64,000 bases of DNA, taken from contig NZ_CP064786.1 of the NCBI RefSeq assembly GCF_017094485.1, forward strand, positions 434,001-498,000, in the 5' to 3' direction. Positions 49,434 through 61,257 of this stretch are shown here, piece by piece. The translations under genes and the position numbers were made by a program. The notes under the pieces were generated by a model. The model was not told the origin of the DNA, searched no databases, and was given only the letters and a program-made list of their open reading frames with translations. Every line of letters begins with the position of its first letter. The first letter of the stretch is position 1. The DNA is from Natranaeroarchaeum sulfidigenes. GTDB taxonomy: Archaea > Halobacteriota > Halobacteria > Halobacteriales > Natronoarchaeaceae.

Positions 49434-49629
49434 TCTATTCACTTGCTCTGACTCGCAACGAGAGTCACAAAAAGGTTGTTCCACACACGTCTCAGTCGAT
49501 GTCAGCCAGCAGCTGTTCGCAGGCCAAGCGTATCTTGTGGATGTCTTCTCGACTACCGTCTACAGAGTTCCTCCTGCAGCGGTACCCGTGAATCGAGGAG
49601 ATGGGGAACGACTCAGAGGTAGGTGGGTC

Positions 49630-50409
49630 TCAGGGCAATCGCTCCTCGTCGATATCCAGCGCAGCTGCGACTGTCGCACGGAGGTCTGCCTCCGAAGCAG
49701 CCTCGGCCTCGTCAACTACCTCCCTCAGCATCGCTTCGAGTGTCTCGATACGATCCTCGATCCCGTCGAGATCGAGCACCCGGTCGGCGATCGTCAGATA
49801 GGTCTGTTCGTCGTACTCGACACGGTCCTCGTCAGTGAGCTCGATCTCAGATGAGTCCTCGTTCGAAATCGGCAGCCCGATGACCGAAATCGGGTCCGCG
49901 ATAGTGAACGACTCACCAGCGACAGCTTGCGGGAGCAGCACCTGTGAACCACTGCATTCACCGCCGCCAGGGGCCTTGAACGTGTAACACAAGCTATCTT
50001 CGAGGACGAGTTCACGCTCGGCAGCAGCGATGCCGAGCACGAGACAGTTCTCCAGGCGGACGGTCGTACCGACGACGTTTCCACGAATCACACAGTTCTG
50101 GAGGCGGATCGTCGTCCCGCTGACACTGCTATGCGTATAGGCATCGATTCCAGTAATCCGGCCATCTGCTCCAACGTCACCATACACTTCACACTCGTCG
50201 AGTTCGACGCCCGTCCTTCCCATCACTGAGGCTTCGACGCGTGCGCCGGATTCAATGGCCACGTCGTTCCCGTAGATTCCGTCGGTCACCACGGCATCTG
50301 GACCGACCGTCACGTCACGCCCGATTTCGGATTGGACGGTCGGGATGATCTGGCCCTCGTAGACCTCGCTCTCGTCGACGATCGCCCGGGTATCCGAGAG
50401 GTCAGCCAT
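49630..50409 (-). CDS. Left-handed beta-helix protein with coiled C-terminus (three-gene module)
   Basis: A 259-residue protein whose first 150 residues hold repeated short strands of the hexapeptide type (VTVGPDAVVTDGIYGNDVAIESGARVEASVMGRTGVELDECEVYGDVGADG), as in left-handed beta-helices or bactofilin-like polymers. A Cys-containing loop (PGGGECSGSQVLLPQAV) follows, then a helical C-terminus (DRVLDLDGIEDRIETLEAMLREVVDEAEAASEADL). It is the third gene of an operon and overlaps the preceding stop by one base at 50409. The frame continues open for 45 codons after its TGA, to 49492. A scaffold or polymer role is inferred from fold only. Confidence 0.65.
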   Translation of the reverse strand: MADLSDTRAIVDESEVYEGQIIPTVQSEIGRDVTVGPDAVVTDGIYGNDVAIESGARVEASVMGRTGVELDECEVYGDVGADGRITGIDAYTHSSVSGTTIRLQNCVIRGNVVGTTVRLENCLVLGIAAAERELVLEDSLCYTFKAPGGGECSGSQVLLPQAVAGESFTIADPISVIGLPISNEDSSEIELTDEDRVEYDEQTYLTIADRVLDLDGIEDRIETLEAMLREVVDEAEAASEADLRATVAAALDIDEERLP

Positions 50410-51341
50410 TACTCTTCCACCTCGATTCGGACTCCATCTTCGATCACGCCATCGAACGCATCGCTGTACGAGACAAGCCCACCGAGACGCTCCTCTCCAT
50501 GCTGGTCGATCACGTCCACGAGATCGTCCTTCCGAACGTCCAGTCGTGCGGTGTCATCCGGGGGTCGACCAGTAACTGCGTACATCGGATCGTCGAACTG
50601 GTCAAGTTGATCGATCGATGCGGAGAGCCACTCTCCATCGTCGTGTTGGATCTGTGACGGTCCGACGACGAAGGTTTTGCTCTCTGCTCCCCGTTCGACG
50701 GTGATCTCCCAGCACGGCACCTGAATTGGTGTCGGCTCATCGATCGTGAGTGCCGTGTCGGCCCGGTGGTGATCGATATCGTCGAGCAAGCGCTCACGTC
50801 GGTCGATGAACCCATCGATCGAGTCGTATGCCCGATCGATTGCTTGCCGGAGCGATCCCTCGCGTGAGGACTGGACCGTGTTGTTGTGTTCACGGAACTC
50901 GGCCCACGTGCTCGTGACGTGTTCGACAAACGGCGTTTCGACGGATTCCTCGAACTCGTTTTCGTCGATCTCGAAGATGTGTGAGCCGACATCGCGGACT
51001 CGTTTTTCGGCCTTGCGATCCAGCTCCTCTTGTTTTTCCTGGTATCGCTCGCCGATCCGATCGAGGGTCGACTCCAGTTCCTCGCGTTCCTCCTCGATCG
51101 TTTTTTCTTCGGCCGCGATCTGCGGTTCGAGGCTATGGACTTCCGACATCTCGTCGATAAGCTTCACTTCGGCCTGTGCCTGTGTGTTGTCGTTGATCGC
51201 ATCGACGATCGTCTCGACACCCTCTGTGATCGCCGTTCGGATCTTCTGTACCTCTCCGATCAGGTTCTGTATCTCGGTTCTGACGTTGCCGATACGCTCG
51301 CTGATGTTCGACAGGAGTGGGTGGAGATCTTGACTCGACAT
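50409..51341 (-). CDS. Coiled-coil protein of unknown function (three-gene module)
   Basis: A 310-residue protein with a helical N-terminus (LLSNISERIGNVRTEIQNLIGEVQKIRTAITEG) and a coiled coil (EEKTIEEEREELESTLDRIGERYQEKQEELDRKAEKRV). The C-terminal half is an alpha/beta part with WEITVERGAESKTFVVGPS and a VRKDDLVDVIDQHGEE segment. No known catalytic motif and no membrane helix. It lies one base after the zinc-ribbon membrane gene and is joined to the beta-helix gene, so the three products probably form one complex. Confidence 0.65.
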   Translation of the reverse strand: MSSQDLHPLLSNISERIGNVRTEIQNLIGEVQKIRTAITEGVETIVDAINDNTQAQAEVKLIDEMSEVHSLEPQIAAEEKTIEEEREELESTLDRIGERYQEKQEELDRKAEKRVRDVGSHIFEIDENEFEESVETPFVEHVTSTWAEFREHNNTVQSSREGSLRQAIDRAYDSIDGFIDRRERLLDDIDHHRADTALTIDEPTPIQVPCWEITVERGAESKTFVVGPSQIQHDDGEWLSASIDQLDQFDDPMYAVTGRPPDDTARLDVRKDDLVDVIDQHGEERLGGLVSYSDAFDGVIEDGVRIEVEE

Positions 51342-51342
51342 G

Positions 51343-53088
51343 TTAGTTCTGTTTTGCTCGGCTCATTCCGGTTGCTCGTTTCGCCATCATGTGCCCCTTG
51401 TTGATCGCGGGGATCGGATTGACGCTCCCCCTGACGTCCATGATGTGTTGTTTCTTGTCTATGTCCTCCATGGATTCGAGCAACTGCTTTTGATGCTTGC
51501 TGGCCTGTAAGTTCCTGACAGATGCTTCGGCACCGACACGGTTTGCCTTCGCGCTCTCGTAGGCGAACTCGGCGGCCGCCTCGTTGGCTTCGAGGTTCTG
51601 CTGGGCGACATCGATGAGTTGTTCCTGTGCCGCCATCTTCTCTCTGTGGCGACGTTCCTGTTCGGCCCGAAGCATCTGTGCGTTGGCCTGTGCTTGCTGT
51701 TCGGCCTGTTCGAGCCGCTCCTGTTCGACGTTTCGTGTTTCCTCGATAAGCTCGCTCGTGCGTCGGTCGATTTCCTCGGCCTTTTGATTGACTTCAGTCC
51801 GGAACTTGTTCTTGCGCTGTTCGGCAAGCCCCCGATATTTCACCATCAGATCACCGATCTCGTCGATTTTTCCTTTGCCGGCACGTGCACGAGTCTGCAG
51901 GTCCCGGAGCTTTGCGCGCCGGTCCTTGATCCGACCGCTAGCCGTTCGGATCTCTTCGCGGCGTTGCTCGTATTCACGCTCTCCGAGCTCGGTCTTTTGA
52001 TCCTCGATGGACTCGTAGATTCGGCGGCGCTCGTCGTCTTTCTCGATCCAGAGCTGGTCCCACACGTCCTCGATCACTTCGTCTTTCATCCGATGTTTCG
52101 GGATGATGACGCCCTCGGTGAACGTGTTCGTACACGTCGGGCAGTGCCACTCCGCACCGTCGGAGAGTGTGCCCTCAAGCTGTGATTCGACCTCGTCGAT
52201 CTGGCAGACTGGACAGTAGAACTTGTACGTCGTCGTCGCGAGAAGATCTCCCGCGGTCTCGATATGGTCGTTCAGTGTATCGATCGCGTCCGATTGCGTC
52301 TCGACGACGTGTGTGACCGTCTCGTCTGCACTCTCTTTGAGTTCACGCAGTTGCTCCCCTGGGTCGGTCTCGAAGGCGAGCTGTTCTAAGTCCTCGATCG
52401 TGTCGACGATCTCTGCAGCCTCGTCGAGCTCGTACTCGGGGTCGAGATCGACGCCACCATCACTCATCGCGGGCTCGATCCGTTCTAGTCCCTCGACAAG
52501 TGGATTGTCGCCTTCGATAACCGGCGCGGAAAGCGTCAGTTCCTCCGTGTTTGCGAGTTCGTTGTGTACGTTCCCGAGATGACGGACGATATCCTCTTCG
52601 ACGTTGTCCTCGGGATCGATAACGGTCGGGAATCGGTCGATCTTCGTGAGCTCGTTGTGGGCCTGGGCCAGCGCGTCCGGATCATCCAGCCGTTCGAGAT
52701 TGAACTCCGTGTGAGATGCTGTATCGGTCGCATCAAACAGCAGCGTCCCTTCGCCCCGTGGAAATGCATATCCTGTCCAGTATCGTTTCCGTGCGCCGGT
52801 CACACGGATCTCCGGGCGCTCGTCTCTGGCCCGTTTGAGATCTACCAGGCCCTTTCCACCGATCGCTGCACCGACCATTGCGACCCAGACGCCGCCGATG
52901 ACGACGTATGCGAAAATGATCGTCAGAGCGCCCGCAGCGATGAGTTTTAGTCCATCCCGATAGGTGCTATGTTGCTCTTCTGCGAATTCGCGGATGTATT
53001 CCCCGATCACTTCGTCGATCGATAACGCGAGCGATGTCGCGTCGTCGACCGTACGATCCCCGGAGAGTGTCGTGCTTGACAATCTCAT
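51343..53088 (-). CDS. Membrane protein with zinc ribbon and long coiled coil (three-gene module)
   Basis: A 581-residue protein. Residues about 45-80 form one or two membrane helices (LKLIAAGALTIIFAYVV...). A folded part follows (TGARKRYWTGYAFPRGEG), then a zinc ribbon with Y-C-P-V-C (about 298) and H-C-P-T-C (about 323), and a long charged coiled coil (about 345-520, many E/R/Q/A). The short end MMAKRATGMSRAKQN is basic. A TATA-like CATTTATTAAG (53111-53124, minus) centred 30 bp before the ATG starts the operon. No known family was recognised. It likely anchors a cytosolic scaffold to the membrane. Confidence 0.65.
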   Translation of the reverse strand: MRLSSTTLSGDRTVDDATSLALSIDEVIGEYIREFAEEQHSTYRDGLKLIAAGALTIIFAYVVIGGVWVAMVGAAIGGKGLVDLKRARDERPEIRVTGARKRYWTGYAFPRGEGTLLFDATDTASHTEFNLERLDDPDALAQAHNELTKIDRFPTVIDPEDNVEEDIVRHLGNVHNELANTEELTLSAPVIEGDNPLVEGLERIEPAMSDGGVDLDPEYELDEAAEIVDTIEDLEQLAFETDPGEQLRELKESADETVTHVVETQSDAIDTLNDHIETAGDLLATTTYKFYCPVCQIDEVESQLEGTLSDGAEWHCPTCTNTFTEGVIIPKHRMKDEVIEDVWDQLWIEKDDERRRIYESIEDQKTELGEREYEQRREEIRTASGRIKDRRAKLRDLQTRARAGKGKIDEIGDLMVKYRGLAEQRKNKFRTEVNQKAEEIDRRTSELIEETRNVEQERLEQAEQQAQANAQMLRAEQERRHREKMAAQEQLIDVAQQNLEANEAAAEFAYESAKANRVGAEASVRNLQASKHQKQLLESMEDIDKKQHIMDVRGSVNPIPAINKGHMMAKRATGMSRAKQN

Positions 53089-53396
53089 ACGACATGTTTG
53101 GATCTTATTGTTACTTAATAAATGTATTGAAAGGGGTAGGTATAGAGGATGCCGACTTGCTTTGTTGACTGGTGACCAGCATTACGTCCCATTACAGTCT
53201 GAGGAAAGCCGGAGATACATCATGCGTACTCCGTAATGCCTCGCCTCATCACTACAGAACCCTTCTGAGCGGGGAGTACCACCGACTGCCGATGGGAGGG
53301 GGCGGAAACCTAAGAATCCACCACTGTTGGTTCACGCCATTGCTCTCAAGATCTTTCGTAGTTCATTACAGCTCATTTTTTCACTGCCGATACAAT

Positions 53397-53436
53397 AACA
53401 ACGGTTGTTGTACAAATACATCATAGTATTTATTAT
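53397..53436 (+). promoter_or_regulatory. Promoter region with palindrome before the GH13 gene
   Basis: AACAAC-G-GTTGTT (53397-53409) is a perfect 6-bp inverted repeat, followed by a TATA-like TTTATTAT (53429-53436). A 12-bp direct repeat TAGTTCATTACA occurs at 53359-53370 and 53441-53452, on either side. These may be regulator sites for carbohydrate control. The rest of 53089-53478 shows nothing. Confidence 0.4.
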
Positions 53437-53478
53437 GTATTAGTTCATTACATTTCGCCGGACTTGGTATTCACAACC

Positions 53479-53574
53479 ATGATAGAAAGCTACAGTGCCA
53501 TTGACTGGCTGCCTGTTCAGCCAGACGAGTATCTCAACGACATCACGACCGGGCTGGGGGTTTCCCATGACTAA
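53479..53574 (+). CDS. 31-codon upstream ORF overlapping the GH13 start
   Basis: An ATG at 53479 opens a 31-residue frame (MIESYSAIDWLPVQPDEYL...) that stops at 53572-53574, inside the first codons of the GH13 gene, whose ATG is at 53567. The leader peptide is acidic like real halophile proteins. Such overlap can couple or restrain translation of the main gene. Whether it is translated is unknown. Confidence 0.35.
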   Translation: MIESYSAIDWLPVQPDEYLNDITTGLGVSHD

Positions 53575-56500
53575 AGACTCGGACTTCCACGAGATTAGTC
53601 GACGTTCCCTGCTCGGCGGTGTCGCAGGGGCGGGAATGCTCTCTGCGATGGGTGCGCCCACCTTCGCGGAAGAAGAATTTACCACAACCGACGCGGAAGC
53701 ATTGCTTCCGGAGGGATTCGACCCACAAACACCAGTCGAGTCACACCATCCCGGCGAACCCCGGTTCGTCGCAGTCGGTGAAACGCTGTTTAACCCGATC
53801 TGGGCGGTTGGCTTCAACGCTGAGGGGACACCAGATTTCGAAGAGCCCGACGGCAGTGTTCTCTTCGACAAGGGACGAGACCACCTCGGTCCGCGTCTTC
53901 CAGAGCTCGGCGAGAACTTCGATGGATACGCTCCGGATGACTTCGAATGGTCGCTTGTCGATGCACCAGAAGACAGTGATGGCCAGAGTGAAGTTCTCTC
54001 GTTTGCCACCCCGTCGAGTGACGTCCCCCGGTACGACGCCGGACAGGACAATGTCGTCGAATTCGAGGCGGATGCCGAAGGCTGGTACACGCTGGAACTA
54101 GACGGGCCGGATGGAACCCACGAACTGACGATCTATGCCTTCCCGGAAACTGACGGGGCGGCAGTCTATCCGAGTACGCCCGATACTGATAACGGTGCCC
54201 CACGGATCGACCTTGACGCCGAGTACGACGAAGAAGCGGGGACCTTCACGGTCCACTCGAACGCCGACCCCGCACCACAGGTCGACTCTGACGAAGACGA
54301 CCTCTGGGCAGTGTTCGTTGCCGACGACCGTGATGGGCTCTCGAACGACGATATCGATGTCAGTGAGGATGGACTGACAGCGACGGTCGACACGGAGGAC
54401 TTCGACGGATCAGCACGCGTTCACGCAGCGGCGTTCGACGACGCAGAAGGGAAAAAGAGCGCCGCCGACGTGATCGAACTCCACGACGACGGCTCGATCG
54501 AGCTTCCGAGTCGGCCACCCGAATGGCTCAAAGACAGCGTTATGTACCAGATCTTCCCGCGCTCGTGGGGCGGCGAGCGCGAGGAGACGACGCTCGAAAC
54601 GCTGATCGACGGGACGCTCCGAGACGGAAGCGAGGATGCTCGGGGTATCGACTATCTCGACGAACTCGGCGTGGACGTCCTCTGGATTACACCGGTCGTC
54701 CCGGCGACAAGTGTCGAACGGCAGTTCGCCTATCTCGATGGGTTCGATCTCGAGGACGGAATGGGAATCGATCCCGATGAACAGCATCTCTCGGGTGGCG
54801 GCCCACACGGGTACGACACGACCGATTACACTGGTATCTCGCAAGACCTATCGCCCGAATGGGAGCGTGAGCACGCCCTGGAACTGTACGAGGAGTTCAT
54901 CGAGGAATGTCACGAGCACGATATCAAGGTCCTCTTCGATATCGTCATTAACCATGCCGGCCGGACGCATCCACAGTTCCAGGAAACAATCGCCGAAACC
55001 GAAGAGGCGGACCCCTGGCCAGTCGTCAGTGAGTGGGATGAAGAGAGCCCGTACTTCGACTGGTGGGACCGTGCTGATGTCGAACTCGTCGACGAGGACG
55101 GCAACCTCCTCGAAGACGAGCCTCGTGTCACCGGCTTTGCGGACCTGCAGGTGATGCCGAATCTCAACTTCGATAACGTCGCACTTCGGGAGTACATGCT
55201 CGCAGTCGCTGACTTCTGGTCCCGAGAAGTCGGCGTCGACGGCTTCCGTGCGGACATCGCCTACGGCGTCCCCCACGACGTCTGGAAGGAAATCCGTGAA
55301 ATCGTCCGAGCCAACGACAGCGAGTTCCTGATGTTCGACGAGTCGATCCCGCGGGTTGCCGCGCTCTCCGAGAACATGTTCTCGCTGCACCACGACACGG
55401 CTGGCTTCCTGACGACAACTCATGGTGTTATCGCGGACGACGCTCACGGCGGCTCCCTGTTCGGCGACATAGAGCAGCGGACGGAGGACGCGATTCCCGA
55501 CCACTCACTGTTCGTCAACACGCTCGAAAACCATGACGAACTCCGCGCACTCAATCAGGCCGCCGTCGATCTCGATGATCCGAACCACGATGAGATCGAC
55601 GACGAAACGTGGGAGTTCTTCGCCCAGCGAATGCGACTGTGCTGGGCCGCCGCGATCACGATGCCCGGCGTCCCGAAACTGTACTATGGACAGGAGCGCC
55701 AGATTAGCCGCTTCGGAGAAGGCAGACACCTTGGCGACGAGGACGATCGCGGCTTCGAGGACGACGGCGAGATGATCAACGTCGACGCCGACGTCCGACC
55801 CGGCGGTCGACAGCGGGCGTTCATGAACTGGGACGAGTATCCCGAAGACCACCTCGAGTTCTACAAGGACCTCATCGACTTCTATCACGAGCACGAGGTC
55901 CTCCATACCGATGCCAGTTTCGAGCCAATCTTCTTCGACGTCGAGGACGAAGAAGACGCGGAACTCCTCCTGTTCGGTCGAGATGGCTCCGATCTCGACA
56001 TCGACGGTCCCGAGCGGGTCTCGGTCGTGATCAACTTCAACGAAGAGCCAGAAACCGTCGAGCTTTCGGAGGAAACGGACACATTTGACCACTTCCACGA
56101 GGAAGACGTCGCTGCCGACCACAACGACGAGGACGACTCGGTGACGATCGTCGAAGTCGACGATCTCGTCGTGCTCGAAACCGAGGACTTCGGTGAAGAG
56201 TTCGACGTGCTGGCATCGTGGGACGTTCCCGAAGGGACGGACGATGGTCCCGGTTGGTACGAATACCCGACGGACGAGGCGTTCAACGAGGGTGCATTCG
56301 ATCTTACGCACTTCGAAGTTCGTGAGAGCGAGGAGAGTGTGCAGTTTGCGTTCGAGATTGCGGACCTGGAAAGTCCGTTCGACGACGAGAATGGTTTCTC
56401 ACTTCAGTTCCCACATATTTTCGTCCGCGATGAATCCCACGACGCGGACGGTGTCGACTTCGATCCCTTCGGCGATGCGTTCTTCACTTCGTTCGAGGAT

Positions 56501-57769
56501 GAATACAACCTCTGGATCGAAGCGGACGGGTTCACTGACCCAAGAGTCTTCACCACCGAACAGATCGATGAGGAGGATCCAGATCCTGTTGCAACCGGGA
56601 CTGCAGAGACCGACGGTAACGAGATCCAGGTTACGATTCCGAAGGATTCATTCGAGAGCGACCTGACAGATCTCCAACTCGCACCGCTACTTCTGGGCGA
56701 AGATGGTGGTGGGTTCCGTGCGGTGACCGAAGACGGCGGTGATTTCCAATTCGAGGACACGCGCTTCGATGACGATGAGTGGGAGGACCCGGACAACCCG
56801 TTCACCCGTCATTACATCATCGATGCGGTGACGCCGAACGACATCGACAACAGCGAGGCACTCGAATACGACACCGAAAACGAGGCCGTAATTCCCCTTC
56901 TCGACATGGTGGAGGGCATCCGCAACCGAGTCTATCCCGGTGAACTCGTCCGCGAATACGACGGCGGCGACGGAACCGGCTTCGGTCCCGGAAACTACAT
57001 CTATCCGAGTGAGTTCGAGATTCCGGACGGCTCCATAGACATCGACCGCGTGGCCGTCTACGAAGATCAGTACGACGAACGCGCAGCAGTCGCCTTCGAG
57101 ATGGACCCGGACGGACTCGAGAACCAGTTCGACCTGCCTCGCGGCTTCTCACATCCGGTCCCGCAGGTCTACATCCGGAATCCTGACAGTGAAGCTCCGG
57201 GAACCGACGACGCCCGCGAGGGGGTCCAGGCGACTCTGGAAGCCGAGTACCAGTATATGTTGGCCGCAGATGGCGAGGACATCACCGAGTTCGAGGACGC
57301 CGAGGGAGACAGTATCGGCGACCTGGATATCGAACTCGTTCAGATGGACGATGCAATCGTCCTTCAGTTCTCGACTGAGGCACTCGAGGCACCGCTGGTG
57401 GATCATGAACTCGCGTTCGCGGTGTCCGCTCACGACGGCTTCGGCCCCGGTGGCTTGCGCGACGTAGTAACAGAGGACTCCCAACAGGAGTGGAACTTTG
57501 CGGGCGCCGACACTGACAACGCTCCACGAGTGCTCGATATCGTCACCCCGCCAACCGTCTCACAGGAGGACGCTCTCTCTGCTACCGAGGAGGACCGTGC
57601 GACAATCCCGTACGCAGTGGAGACGAAAGACCTCGACGACTACACTGAAGACGGCGACGTATCGACAGAGAGCCTCCAGGACGCCGAATCCGACTGGGAG
57701 GATGGAAAGACAGACACCGACACGCTCCGCGATGCTGCGGACAACTGGCGTCGTGGAGACTCCGAATAA
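53567..57769 (+). CDS. Tat-exported GH13 alpha-amylase/glucodextranase-like enzyme
   Basis: A 1400-residue secreted enzyme. The start at 53567 gives a Tat signal (S-R12-R13-S-L-L-G-G-V-A). The GH13 barrel has its four regions: F-D-I-V-I-N-H (about 454), G-F-R-A-D (nucleophile Asp, about 559), M-F-D-E-S (acid Glu, about 590) and L-E-N-H-D-E (about 655). Two C-terminal domains (about 883-1068 and 1113-1318; G-W-Y-E-Y-P and G-N-Y-I-Y-P openings, F-x-V strands) resemble the glucodextranase C-terminal module (PF09985). The end (D-W-E-D-G-K-T-D-T-D-T-L) is like a repeat found at the end of other haloarchaeal exoenzymes. It digests alpha-glucans outside the cell. Confidence 0.88.
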   Translation: MTKDSDFHEISRRSLLGGVAGAGMLSAMGAPTFAEEEFTTTDAEALLPEGFDPQTPVESHHPGEPRFVAVGETLFNPIWAVGFNAEGTPDFEEPDGSVLFDKGRDHLGPRLPELGENFDGYAPDDFEWSLVDAPEDSDGQSEVLSFATPSSDVPRYDAGQDNVVEFEADAEGWYTLELDGPDGTHELTIYAFPETDGAAVYPSTPDTDNGAPRIDLDAEYDEEAGTFTVHSNADPAPQVDSDEDDLWAVFVADDRDGLSNDDIDVSEDGLTATVDTEDFDGSARVHAAAFDDAEGKKSAADVIELHDDGSIELPSRPPEWLKDSVMYQIFPRSWGGEREETTLETLIDGTLRDGSEDARGIDYLDELGVDVLWITPVVPATSVERQFAYLDGFDLEDGMGIDPDEQHLSGGGPHGYDTTDYTGISQDLSPEWEREHALELYEEFIEECHEHDIKVLFDIVINHAGRTHPQFQETIAETEEADPWPVVSEWDEESPYFDWWDRADVELVDEDGNLLEDEPRVTGFADLQVMPNLNFDNVALREYMLAVADFWSREVGVDGFRADIAYGVPHDVWKEIREIVRANDSEFLMFDESIPRVAALSENMFSLHHDTAGFLTTTHGVIADDAHGGSLFGDIEQRTEDAIPDHSLFVNTLENHDELRALNQAAVDLDDPNHDEIDDETWEFFAQRMRLCWAAAITMPGVPKLYYGQERQISRFGEGRHLGDEDDRGFEDDGEMINVDADVRPGGRQRAFMNWDEYPEDHLEFYKDLIDFYHEHEVLHTDASFEPIFFDVEDEEDAELLLFGRDGSDLDIDGPERVSVVINFNEEPETVELSEETDTFDHFHEEDVAADHNDEDDSVTIVEVDDLVVLETEDFGEEFDVLASWDVPEGTDDGPGWYEYPTDEAFNEGAFDLTHFEVRESEESVQFAFEIADLESPFDDENGFSLQFPHIFVRDESHDADGVDFDPFGDAFFTSFEDEYNLWIEADGFTDPRVFTTEQIDEEDPDPVATGTAETDGNEIQVTIPKDSFESDLTDLQLAPLLLGEDGGGFRAVTEDGGDFQFEDTRFDDDEWEDPDNPFTRHYIIDAVTPNDIDNSEALEYDTENEAVIPLLDMVEGIRNRVYPGELVREYDGGDGTGFGPGNYIYPSEFEIPDGSIDIDRVAVYEDQYDERAAVAFEMDPDGLENQFDLPRGFSHPVPQVYIRNPDSEAPGTDDAREGVQATLEAEYQYMLAADGEDITEFEDAEGDSIGDLDIELVQMDDAIVLQFSTEALEAPLVDHELAFAVSAHDGFGPGGLRDVVTEDSQQEWNFAGADTDNAPRVLDIVTPPTVSQEDALSATEEDRATIPYAVETKDLDDYTEDGDVSTESLQDAESDWEDGKTDTDTLRDAADNWRRGDSE

Positions 57770-57793
57770 CGGTACAGCTTGGTGACACACGAT

Positions 57794-59215
57794 ATGAAAT
57801 TCACTCAAACGAAGTCACGGGCTGTCACGGTCGCTGCGGTGCTGCTCGTCTCGGTCGTCGCAGCCAGTGTTGCGTTCAGCGGTGTCGGCCTCGCATCAGT
57901 CGACACGGCTGACCGAACGGTCGGCGAGACGGTAGTTGAGCCCGGGGACAGTGTTGCTGTCTCCGTTGAGCTCACCGTCACGGACGGCGGTGATCGGTTG
58001 ACCATCCAGGACGACTTCACACACGCCGGTGCTGCGGAAGCTGGTGATCTGCAACACAACGGCGAGTCTATCGATCCCGTGATCTTTGCTGTCGATGATC
58101 GCGGGCTCACGGTTGCAGCAGAAGAGTCCTTTGAAGACGGTGATACGGTCACTGTCGAGTACACGGTGACCGTTGCAGACGCGGTCGACAGTGACGAGAC
58201 AGTGTCGTTCGATGGCACGGCCGGGATCGACGAGCAGGAAGACGTGGATATCGGTGGCGACTCGTCCGTTGAGATCGCGGAGAATCCGATAGCGTCGGCG
58301 GATCGGTCACTGGATCCGACTACCGTTGACGCGGGTGAAACCGCTACTGTTGACCTGGCGCTGGAACTCGACGATGATGCTGACCGGATTACCGTCTTCG
58401 AGGACTACGAGCGGGTTTCGGACGCAACCGTACAGTCGGTGACACACGACGGCGAATCGGTTGATCCGGTGATCGATGCGATCGACGACGAAAGCCTCAC
58501 TATCGGGCTCGAAGAGCCATTCGAAGACGGTGATACCGTTGAGATTTCCTACTCAGTGAGCGTCCCAGAAGACGCAGCGGACGACACTGAGTATGCATTC
58601 ACCGGTGTGGCGACGGCTGACAATCAGCCGGACGTCCAGATCATTGGTGACGACAGTCTGACCGTCGACGTTGACGACTCGGACGACACGTCGCCAGCCC
58701 CGTCACCGCCTCCAACCCCATCGCCTGACCCTGCGGCGTTCGATATCTCGACAGTCGAGGCGAACTCCTCGATCAGCGTTGACGAGACGCTAACGGTCAC
58801 AGCGACAGTCGAGAATACCGGCGACGAGGATGACGAACAGGATGTCTCGCTACTTCTCGACGGCGACGTTGTCGACAGCGATACGACGGCTCTCGATGGT
58901 GATGAGGCGGCCGATGTGACGCTGTCAACCACCTTCGACGATGCGGGCGAGTACGACATGGTCCTCGAAACGGAAGACGATTCGACGGACCTCTCATTCA
59001 CCGTCACCAAGGCGGACGACGATGACACCGAGGAGGACGACACTGAAGAGGATGAGACCGAAGATGAGGACGCTGATGATACCGAGCAGGACGACGAAAC
59101 CGAAGACGATACTGCCGACGACGAACCTGCTGACGATGACCAGCCAGGATTCGGCGTGCTGGTCACGCTTGTCGGGGTTGTAGCCGTGCTGATAGTGGGT
59201 CATCGCAGGACCTGA
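57794..59215 (+). CDS. PGF-CTERM surface protein with CARDB-type domains
   Basis: A 473-residue protein: signal peptide (residues 1-35, ending VGLASVDTAD), two related beta domains of about 130 residues each (TVVEPGDSVAVSVELTV; TTVDAGETATVDLALEL), a Pro/Ser hinge, a CARDB-like domain (SVDETLTVTATVENTGDEDDEQDVSLLLDGDVVDS), a Thr/Asp/Glu-rich linker, and the P-G-F helix and basic end (QPGFGVLVTLVG...GHRRT). The PGF-CTERM is the signal for archaeosortase A lipid attachment. It begins 24 bp after the GH13 stop, so both are one operon, and it may hold substrate or enzyme at the surface. Confidence 0.87.
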   Translation: MKFTQTKSRAVTVAAVLLVSVVAASVAFSGVGLASVDTADRTVGETVVEPGDSVAVSVELTVTDGGDRLTIQDDFTHAGAAEAGDLQHNGESIDPVIFAVDDRGLTVAAEESFEDGDTVTVEYTVTVADAVDSDETVSFDGTAGIDEQEDVDIGGDSSVEIAENPIASADRSLDPTTVDAGETATVDLALELDDDADRITVFEDYERVSDATVQSVTHDGESVDPVIDAIDDESLTIGLEEPFEDGDTVEISYSVSVPEDAADDTEYAFTGVATADNQPDVQIIGDDSLTVDVDDSDDTSPAPSPPPTPSPDPAAFDISTVEANSSISVDETLTVTATVENTGDEDDEQDVSLLLDGDVVDSDTTALDGDEAADVTLSTTFDDAGEYDMVLETEDDSTDLSFTVTKADDDDTEEDDTEEDETEDEDADDTEQDDETEDDTADDEPADDDQPGFGVLVTLVGVVAVLIVGHRRT

Positions 59216-59356
59216 TCAGCTCACTAGATCCCACAGTAGGACTCCCGTCCTTCGGACTGTTGATGCTGGATCCACGCCAGCAATCATATTCAGACGGTCA
59301 ACAGCCACATTGTTCATAGACCGCAAGTTAAGTTGCTTCCAGTTCTACAGCGGGAT

Positions 59357-59935
59357 ATGTGGCCCTGGGGACATCTCGCGGTTGGGTACCTCCTGTATAC
59401 GCTCTACACGCGCACTCGATACGGACACCGACCACTGGCTGTTGCGACGATATTCCTCGTCGTCGGCACACAGTTTCCCGACCTGATTGACAAGCCGCTG
59501 TCGTGGACGTTTGGGATCCTCCCAACTGGGCGAACTCTCGCCCACTCTTTTCTGTTTGCCGTTCCGGTCAGCCTCGCGGTCTACGAGACCTGTCGGCGTC
59601 ACCACCGGCTCCAAGCGGAGTGGGGCATCGCGTTCGCGATTGGAAACCTCTCGCACGTGATTGTCGACGCCGTACCCGCGTTCCTGTGGGGCGACCCAGC
59701 CGAGGCACGTTTTCTGTTGTGGCCCCTGCTTTCTGTCCCTGGTTACGAGGAGGGGGAGACTCCATCGGTCATCGACGCATTCCTCACGCTGGATCTGTCG
59801 AACTACTTGCTGTTCGAGTTCGGCCTGTTCGGGATCACCATCATTGTCTGGTGGTTTGATGGCCGTCCGGGCCTGTCCTACTCCCGCAGCAAACTCCGGA
59901 GCTTTGTCTCTGGAACGTCCGCAAGCAGCAGCTAG
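59357..59935 (+). CDS. Membrane-bound metal-dependent hydrolase (DUF457/YdjM type)
   Basis: A 192-residue protein with about four membrane helices: W-G-H-L-A-V-G-Y-L-L-Y at the start, T-Q-F-P-D-L-I-D-K-P, R-T-L-A-H-S, N-L-S-H-V-I-V-D-A. These H/D motifs mark the LexA-binding/YdjM-like inner-membrane hydrolases. Reaction unknown. The ATG at 59357 is preferred: a TATA-like AGTTAAGTT stands about 27 bp before it. It overlaps the 3' end of the converging GlmU-like gene by four bases. Confidence 0.85.
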   Translation: MWPWGHLAVGYLLYTLYTRTRYGHRPLAVATIFLVVGTQFPDLIDKPLSWTFGILPTGRTLAHSFLFAVPVSLAVYETCRRHHRLQAEWGIAFAIGNLSHVIVDAVPAFLWGDPAEARFLLWPLLSVPGYEEGETPSVIDAFLTLDLSNYLLFEFGLFGITIIVWWFDGRPGLSYSRSKLRSFVSGTSASSS

Positions 59936-61128
59936 TTCGTCCGATCGTGCAGTACTGACTCTCCGGGCATCGTTGCCGTCTCGACACCCAGCTTTACGCC
60001 AGCGTTCAGGCTCGTGTTGATCCCCGTTTTCGTTCGGTCACCGACGACGACGCCGAGTTTGCGCCGGCCAGTGTCGATCTGTTCGCCTTTCACCAGCATC
60101 CGGACAGCGCTATCGTCGTGGCGGAGGTTCGCAACCTTCGTTCCAGCGCCGAAGTTGACGTCCTGCCCGAGCACCGAGTCGCCAATATACGAGAGATGGC
60201 CCGCTGCGGTGCCAGCCATCAGGACGGAGTTTTTCACCTCGACGGCGTTGCCAACCCGGACGTCCTCGCCGATCACCGTGGAGCCGCGAACGTAGGCGTT
60301 CGGTCCAACATCAGCCCCCGAGCGGATCACTACGGGGCCTTCGACGTATGCACCCGAGCGAATCCGCGCGCCGGATTCGACGACGACCTCGCCCTGCAGG
60401 GTCGCGCCGTCCTCGACGGTCCCGTCAATTCGACCGTCCAGCCCGTCCAGCACAGCCTCGTTGGCATTCAGCAGCTCCCACGGGCGTCCGACATCGAGCC
60501 ACGGACCGTCGTATTCGACGGCCGTGACCGACTGGTCATCGGCCATCAATAACTCGATCGCTTCGGTGATCTCGTACTCCCCACGCGGGCTCTTTTCTGT
60601 CTGATCAATATACTCGAAGATCGACGGCTCGAACGCGTAGATGCCTGTGTTGATTAGATTCGATGGCGGATCGTCCGGCTTCTCGACGAGGCTCGTCACT
60701 TCGCCACCTTCGATCTCGACCACGCCGTAGGAACTCGGATTTGCAACTGGCTGGACGGCGACCGTCGCACCATCGTCCGCGGCAAGCTGTCGGGGCAGTG
60801 TCTCGTTGATGACGACGTCGCCGTTGATCACGAGGAATCGATCACTGACTGCCTCCCGTGCACAGCCGATCGCGTGGGCGGTCCCGAGCGCCTCTTCCTG
60901 TGTGACGTACTCGATCGGGATCCCCGCGTACTCCGCTCCCAGCCGGTCCTTGACCGTCTCACCCATGTAGCCGACGACGACAACGAACCGATCGACGACA
61001 TCCACACACCGAGCCATTGTCTGCTCGATGAGGGTCGATTCGCCCAGTGGCAACAACGGTTTCGGGCACCCACGCGTAAGCGGGCGCATCCGGGTCCCCT
61101 CGCCTGCAGCGATAATGACAGCGTCCAT
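59932..61128 (-). CDS. Bifunctional sugar-1-phosphate nucleotidyltransferase/acetyltransferase (GlmU-like)
   Basis: A 398-residue protein: N-terminal nucleotidyltransferase (I-I-A-A-G-E-G-T-R-M-R-P-L-T; V-I-N-G-D-V-V; N-T-G-I-Y-A-F) and C-terminal left-handed beta-helix (V-I-R-S-G-A-D-V-G-P-N-A-Y-V-R-G-S-T-V-I-G) with a G-V-V-V-G-D-R-T-K-T-G-I-N acetyl-CoA-type end. This is the archaeal GlmU-like form that acetylates GlcN-1-P and forms UDP-GlcNAc, or acts on glucose-1-P. A TATA at 61151 gives a leaderless message. It is divergent from the mutase that supplies its substrate. Confidence 0.9.
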   Translation of the reverse strand: MDAVIIAAGEGTRMRPLTRGCPKPLLPLGESTLIEQTMARCVDVVDRFVVVVGYMGETVKDRLGAEYAGIPIEYVTQEEALGTAHAIGCAREAVSDRFLVINGDVVINETLPRQLAADDGATVAVQPVANPSSYGVVEIEGGEVTSLVEKPDDPPSNLINTGIYAFEPSIFEYIDQTEKSPRGEYEITEAIELLMADDQSVTAVEYDGPWLDVGRPWELLNANEAVLDGLDGRIDGTVEDGATLQGEVVVESGARIRSGAYVEGPVVIRSGADVGPNAYVRGSTVIGEDVRVGNAVEVKNSVLMAGTAAGHLSYIGDSVLGQDVNFGAGTKVANLRHDDSAVRMLVKGEQIDTGRRKLGVVVGDRTKTGINTSLNAGVKLGVETATMPGESVLHDRTN

Positions 61129-61150
61129 ACGCGTTTCAGGTAGGCTGAGT

Positions 61151-61159
61151 CGTATAAAC
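61151..61159 (-). promoter_or_regulatory. TATA box of the GlmU-like gene
   Basis: GTTTATACG on the minus strand, centred about 27 bp before the ATG at 61128, fitting a leaderless transcript. Confidence 0.55.
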
Positions 61160-61257
61160 TCCCGGATCCTGCGTAGTCTTCCATGGCATCATCTGCGTAT
61201 GAGACCTCGGTGGCCGAAAGGCGAACGACTGTTAGGGATCGACACGTCAGATGACAT

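Follow-up and report, generated by a model that had tools for sequence, protein, structure and literature searches.

Do three genes that touch one another on the minus strand of a 64,000-nucleotide stretch of the Natranaeroarchaeum sulfidigenes genome (hereafter the window) belong together and, if so, what might their products do? An earlier note, made from the letters of this DNA, had read them as a module encoding a membrane-anchored zinc-ribbon coiled coil (A), a soluble coiled coil (B) and a beta-helix protein (C), and had suggested a cytoskeletal or membrane-scaffold assembly. We found that A, B and C are undescribed genes that form a real, conserved and unnamed three-gene module. As to function, gene context leads us to favor, at a probability of roughly 0.5, a membrane-bound scaffold complex that is linked to a kinase and would work with membrane remodeling of the SPFH or ESCRT type.

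To learn whether the three genes travel together, we searched 292 evenly sampled Halobacteria genomes for each of them. Recognizable A, B and C occurred in an identical set of 14 genomes, always adjacent as A-B-C and in one orientation, so that about 5% of Halobacteria genomes carry the module; what else was matched were pieces of C or weak similarities at coiled-coil level. Across 15 loci, the pairwise distances of the three proteins were correlated (Mantel r = 0.95, 0.90 and 0.85, each P = 0.0005), and the spacing of the genes in these relatives was as close as in the window, from a 1-base overlap up to a few bases. The genes flanking the module otherwise vary between loci. Chance contact between unrelated genes is ruled out by the shared 14 hosts, the constant order and the correlated distances. 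Independent occurrence of the genes, which the earlier note had named as the refuting observation, was looked for and not seen, and the conserved triplet for which it proposed to search Halobacteria is present.

We also observed the triplet well beyond this class. A profile of A, scanned over 84,980 genomes, matched eight named haloarchaea and two metagenome-assembled genomes (MAGs) of Deltaproteobacteria, and homologs A′, B′ and C′ stand in the archaeal order on both MAG contigs, one of which (L079) begins within A′. Sampling the phylum to which the first MAG belongs added three bacterial loci (4 of 235 sampled genomes including the first), for a total of five Deltaproteobacteria-type genomes whose triplets are divergent and share the same gene order. 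A complete triplet was also recovered from an AT-rich archaeon of another class (G548) among 392 sampled genomes of the archaeal phylum; both the bacterial and the phylum-wide sampling were partial. When archaeal profiles were compared with bacterial ones, A reached an E-value of 8.7e-20, B one of 3.3e-8 and C one of 8.3e-14; the coiled-coil control, a pairing of the non-homologous A and B, reached 0.0015. These comparisons indicate that all three proteins are homologous across archaea and bacteria and have been kept as a unit.

The domain composition of A agrees with what the earlier note had described. Hydropathy predicts a transmembrane hairpin in each of the 16 archaeal members, as it does in four bacterial homologs, and the four cysteines of the zinc ribbon (C292, C295, C316 and C319) are invariant in a 12-member archaeal alignment; bacterial A′ carries the same two cysteine pairs with a long insert between them. 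A small alpha/beta region is placed between the N-terminal hairpin and the ribbon, and the predicted coiled coil is preceded by the almost invariant block WDQLWIEKDDxRR (W-x2-LW-x-EKDD), whose bacterial counterpart reads MPxWNxLWxEKDDFR. In the PDB, the A profile matched a circular tendon repeat protein; this was set aside as composition or coil noise, no domain passing alone. B is likewise the soluble coiled coil that had been proposed, with no transmembrane segment, a helical N-terminal half, a small C-terminal domain and a conserved GSHIFEIDExxFE segment. Proteins of 111 residues that weakly match B elsewhere, at 25–28% identity over about 100 residues, were dismissed as coiled-coil noise. 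Neither A nor B has a named family in Pfam, NCBIfam or PADLOC, which bears out the statement that no known system matches; both represent new families, and C a divergent bactofilin-like beta-helix.

This assignment of C draws on both structure and sequence. Its AlphaFold2 model is a confident beta-helix (predicted local distance difference test score, pLDDT, of 82.6 overall and 93–98 in the core) with a C-terminal helix at residues 214–235. Structural matches at low root-mean-square deviation (rmsd; 3–4) were right-handed beta-helices with Z of 10–15, which suggests that C may be right-handed, whereas left-handed GlmU-type helices were matched only at 10–11. A Foldseek search with the model gave no significant match, and bactofilins fell outside the top structural matches, a position that does not by itself exclude them. 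The Pfam Bactofilin profile (PF04519, curated cut-off 27.9 bits) matched 13 of 14 members of the C family at E ≤ 0.1; the ten relatives scanned in detail spanned 18–29 bits, with one over the cut-off at 29.0 bits, and window C scored 11.8 bits, below it. The best PDB profile match was also a bactofilin, albeit a weak one (E = 0.07). Two other bactofilin-domain proteins that score over the cut-off are encoded in the same genome, both also in a congener (G140). In profile comparisons C was much closer to bacterial C′ (E = 8.3e-14) than to these two bactofilin-type families of its own genome (4.7e-6 and 0.002) or to a hexapeptide enzyme encoded in the window (0.0025). C thus resembles bactofilins and halofilins in its beta-helix core with hydrophobic repeats and in its family-level Pfam matches, and differs from them in its long C-terminal extension, its coupled partner genes A and B and the low score of the window member. 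The hexapeptide transferases, which are left-handed beta-helices, and the eIF2B left-handed beta-helix (LbH) domain share weak sequence matches with C (E = 3.2e-5 with LbH_EIF2B); against such an identity stand the poor GlmU-type superposition and the scores, every member scanned in detail lying below the curated cut-offs.

Could the module, then, be a bactofilin-type cytoskeleton for cell shape or surface structures, in which filaments of C would lie on the membrane with A as anchor and B as linker and set local curvature? The Pfam and PDB matches of the C family and the right-handed helices among its low-rmsd structural matches would suit such a role, as would the finding that halofilins, haloarchaeal relatives of bactofilins, affect cell shape (PMC12186497). 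We nevertheless consider this unlikely, given that two over-cut-off bactofilin-domain proteins are already present in the genome and its congener, that so few Halobacteria carry the module, and that its conserved neighbors, described below, are SPFH, kinase and AAA or ESCRT-like proteins rather than shape proteins.

Two side observations concern the C gene. A 323-bp stretch (49581–49903) is duplicated at 97.8% identity about 150 kb away (L069 9094–9416; G000 C1 ~334.1 kb), where it sits beside another gene; it comprises the last ~94 codons of C and 3′ flank and is a recent partial copy. In some bacteria C′ is lengthened considerably at its C-terminus (L079 2007–3647; L089 8832–10235), and the added part in L089 looks like a GYF_2-type domain similar to that of the neighboring SPFH protein.

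We next considered how the module is inherited. In a tree of the concatenated triplet, Halorientalis and genus-mates do not group together but branch off at three positions, two of which have full support, and thus the module appears to move laterally between lineages. Within the genus of the window organism, A, B and C were found nowhere in congener G140, where the counterparts of the two flanks of the locus (90% and 85% identity) are separated by a mere ~57 bp, so that an 11.7-kb block is missing (Table 1). The 1424-residue multidomain alpha-amylase encoded in this block belongs to a paralogous family that is expanded in the genome, several copies being 44–56% identical. The module is also being lost: in one genus, a genome that lacks A and B keeps just a decayed remnant of C (G035; L053 ~1290–1750), and a genus-mate (G036) has a frame-split A. 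Tree and distribution together mark the module as a patchy, transferable accessory unit, which rules it out as core machinery for shape or division in Halobacteria.

A patchy distribution, transfer between families and a strain-variable site are also what might be expected of a defense module, here a membrane-bound sensor scaffold that would answer virus attack and spread by lateral transfer. Membrane and envelope-stress systems overlap with defense, and in Halolamina pelagica the module is preceded, at a distance of about 1 kb, by a gene of the phage-integrase family (L061 5689–6930), suggesting that the module is carried there on an integrated element. Yet PADLOC matched A, B and C to defense families at no more than coiled-coil level (best LmuB, 1.1e-5), the flanks hold mostly ordinary metabolism and few defense matches, and the neighbor scans revealed no recurrent defense partner. 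Moreover, the three proteins contain no recognizable toxic effector or nucleic-acid enzyme, and searches of viral contigs with the C profile and of plasmids with the B protein returned no relatives. On balance, a role in defense strikes us as quite improbable. Matches to 'Cas12f' in the neighbor scans proved to be TnpB-type genes.

Which genes accompany the module was determined at 18 archaeal and five bacterial loci. All five bacterial loci have a protein with SPFH/Band_7_1 and GYF_2 domains after the module. In archaea, 11 of the 18 loci adjoin a gene for a protein, D, with an amphipathic N-terminus, transmembrane segments, a long linker and HEAT repeats, and among 32 genomes searched full-length D was seen solely beside the module. 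A Ser/Thr kinase gene lies beside or near the module in four of the bacterial loci and in four of the archaeal ones (L058, L059, L068 and L139); with such kinases numbering 0–3 per haloarchaeal genome, the archaeal adjacency is unlikely to be due to chance.

In three archaea, Halorhabdus amylolytica (G268), G068 and G548, the module and a kinase adjoin an ESCRT-like cluster. Besides a Vps4-like AAA ATPase, all three clusters contain a long coiled coil, a protein of ~180 residues with a Cas2-like start and a small basic-then-acidic protein of 212–240 residues (L140 10085–10723; L141 8658–9332), the candidate ESCRT-III. The best NCBIfam match of the G268 ATPase was CdvC (E = 9.6e-52, with the N-terminus included in the alignment), and that of the G548 ATPase was CDC48, with CdvC next. 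The G268 and G068 clusters additionally encode an SPFH-like zinc-ribbon coiled-coil protein that aligns to the bacterial SPFH domain (hhalign, 8.8e-6); a separate zinc-ribbon protein is also held by both. This contiguity in G268, G068 and the more distant G548, together with kinases typical of main-clade archaeal ESCRT loci according to a survey (PMC10936438), could indicate that A-B-C selects cargo or aids assembly specifically for ESCRT systems of archaea, acting in vesicle formation or protein sorting, with isolated copies as relics or as partners of distant ESCRT genes. We regard this as very unlikely, since most module loci, all five bacterial ones included, have no Vps4-like gene in the flanks examined, and the constant bacterial neighbor is SPFH instead.

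Taken together, these observations lead us to prefer the kinase-linked membrane scaffold. A, B and C would be subunits of one membrane-bound complex that is inherited and transferred as a whole. The hairpin would anchor A in the cytoplasmic membrane and leave the zinc ribbon and the long coiled coil on the cytoplasmic side. B would serve as a soluble coiled-coil partner within the scaffold, and C, as a bactofilin-like beta-helix, might stack or polymerize along the complex. In bacteria the partner would be the SPFH/Band-7 protein. For most archaea it would be D, with its membrane anchor and HEAT repeats, and for three of them the ESCRT-like cluster with its Vps4-like AAA ATPase, joined in two by the SPFH-like protein. 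Where present, the Ser/Thr kinase may often regulate the scaffold by phosphorylation. A probable job for such a complex would be local membrane repair, stress response or vesiculation. Of the functions that the earlier note had put forward, the membrane scaffold is the best supported, and the context of SPFH, kinase, Vps4-like AAA and ESCRT-like genes points toward membrane remodeling or envelope stress more than to cell shape or division in particular.

Several observations weigh against this interpretation. The AlphaFold2 model of A is of low confidence (mean pLDDT 57), ESCRT-like clusters adjoin only 3 of the 18 archaeal loci, and their small basic-then-acidic protein has no sequence match in Pfam, NCBIfam or the PDB that would identify it as ESCRT-III. 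The window locus itself has no adjoining kinase, D, SPFH or ESCRT-like gene; no Vps4-like gene was found in the window or the adjoining stretch (L153), and neither full-length D nor such kinases were found elsewhere in the genome. The window copy is thus a divergent, isolated form of the module, and must act as the core triplet alone or with distant partners.

The ESCRT, SPFH and Psp systems are thought to have come together at an early evolutionary stage. If the preferred reading is true, a strictly co-inherited triplet found beside SPFH genes in bacteria and beside Vps4/ESCRT-like genes in archaea would be a candidate for an adaptor that they have in common and that couples them at the membrane. 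C would also add to haloarchaea a third, module-bound bactofilin-like kind beside the two already in this genome. Given that the module is small and that its haloarchaeal carriers include the culturable Halorhabdus, Halorubellus, Halorientalis and Halolamina, these ideas are testable by tagging and deletion.

The three genes are closely packed in the window (Table 1). Open reading frames were found where the three touching genes had been placed: a single nucleotide separates the stop codon of A (51345–51343) from the start of B (51341), and the stop of B and the start of C overlap as TAATG at 50409. As there is no room for a promoter between A, B and C, and the TATA-like TTTATTAA precedes A, the three genes are likely to form one transcript from this shared candidate promoter.

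Table 1 Coordinates of the module, its predicted elements and associated regions (positions in the window unless a locus is named).
Feature	Position	Strand	Basis
Gene A, 581 aa	51343..53088	minus	Open reading frame; 12-member alignment; bacterial homolog by profile-profile comparison
Gene B, 310 aa	50409..51341	minus	Open reading frame; family alignment; bacterial homolog by profile-profile comparison
Gene C, 259 aa	49630..50409	minus	Open reading frame; AlphaFold2 model; Pfam Bactofilin matches in relatives; bacterial homolog
Hydrophobic transmembrane hairpin, A residues ~45–89	52822..52956	minus	Hydropathy; two helices in low-confidence model
CPxC...CPxC zinc ribbon, A residues 292–319	52132..52215	minus	Invariant Cys in alignment
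WDQLWIEKDDxRR block, then predicted coiled coil, A residues 336–547	51448..52083	minus	Alignment; model
TATA-like TTTATTAA, about 26–33 nt before A start	53114..53121	minus	Sequence only; candidate single promoter, leaderless type
11.7-kb block missing from congener G140: module, multidomain amylase, surface-type protein, nucleotidyltransferase	49479..61206		Synteny
ESCRT-like clusters, two haloarchaea and the archaeon of another class	L141 2305–13144; L142 13–11035; L139/L140		

Among known systems, the nearest working analog is the PspA-YdjGHI operon of Bacillus, in which an SPFH protein (YdjI) and transmembrane anchors are needed to bring a protein of the PspA/ESCRT-III family to the membrane (PMC8581546), and in which both YdjG and the band-7 protein are described as having zinc ribbons (PMC11237479). 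The likeness lies in an operon that couples an SPFH protein with transmembrane anchors and in a role in membrane stress; unlike it, the module has no member that matches a Psp or Ydj family, and the window locus is without SPFH. PspA itself gave no Pfam match in A, B or C and was not recognized among the listed neighbors, not every one of which was scanned. The main-clade archaeal ESCRT loci, reported in the survey by Makarova et al. to comprise Vps4, ESCRT-III, arCOG09748, arCOG08177 and a kinase, with SPFH proteins also carried by archaeal ESCRT loci (PMC10936438), resemble the three archaeal neighborhoods in their Vps4-like AAA ATPase, coiled coil, protein with a Cas2-like start, small charged protein and kinase. 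They differ in that most module loci have no Vps4-like or ESCRT-like neighbors, and the A-B-C triplet goes unmentioned in the consulted passages of the survey's main text. Tentatively, and with somewhat less assurance than for the scaffold itself, we propose that A-B-C may be an undescribed modular membrane-remodeling platform common to archaea and Deltaproteobacteria, one that would plug alternatively into SPFH, HEAT-repeat membrane or ESCRT-type partners under kinase control and be distinct from the Psp, flotillin, bactofilin and ESCRT systems.

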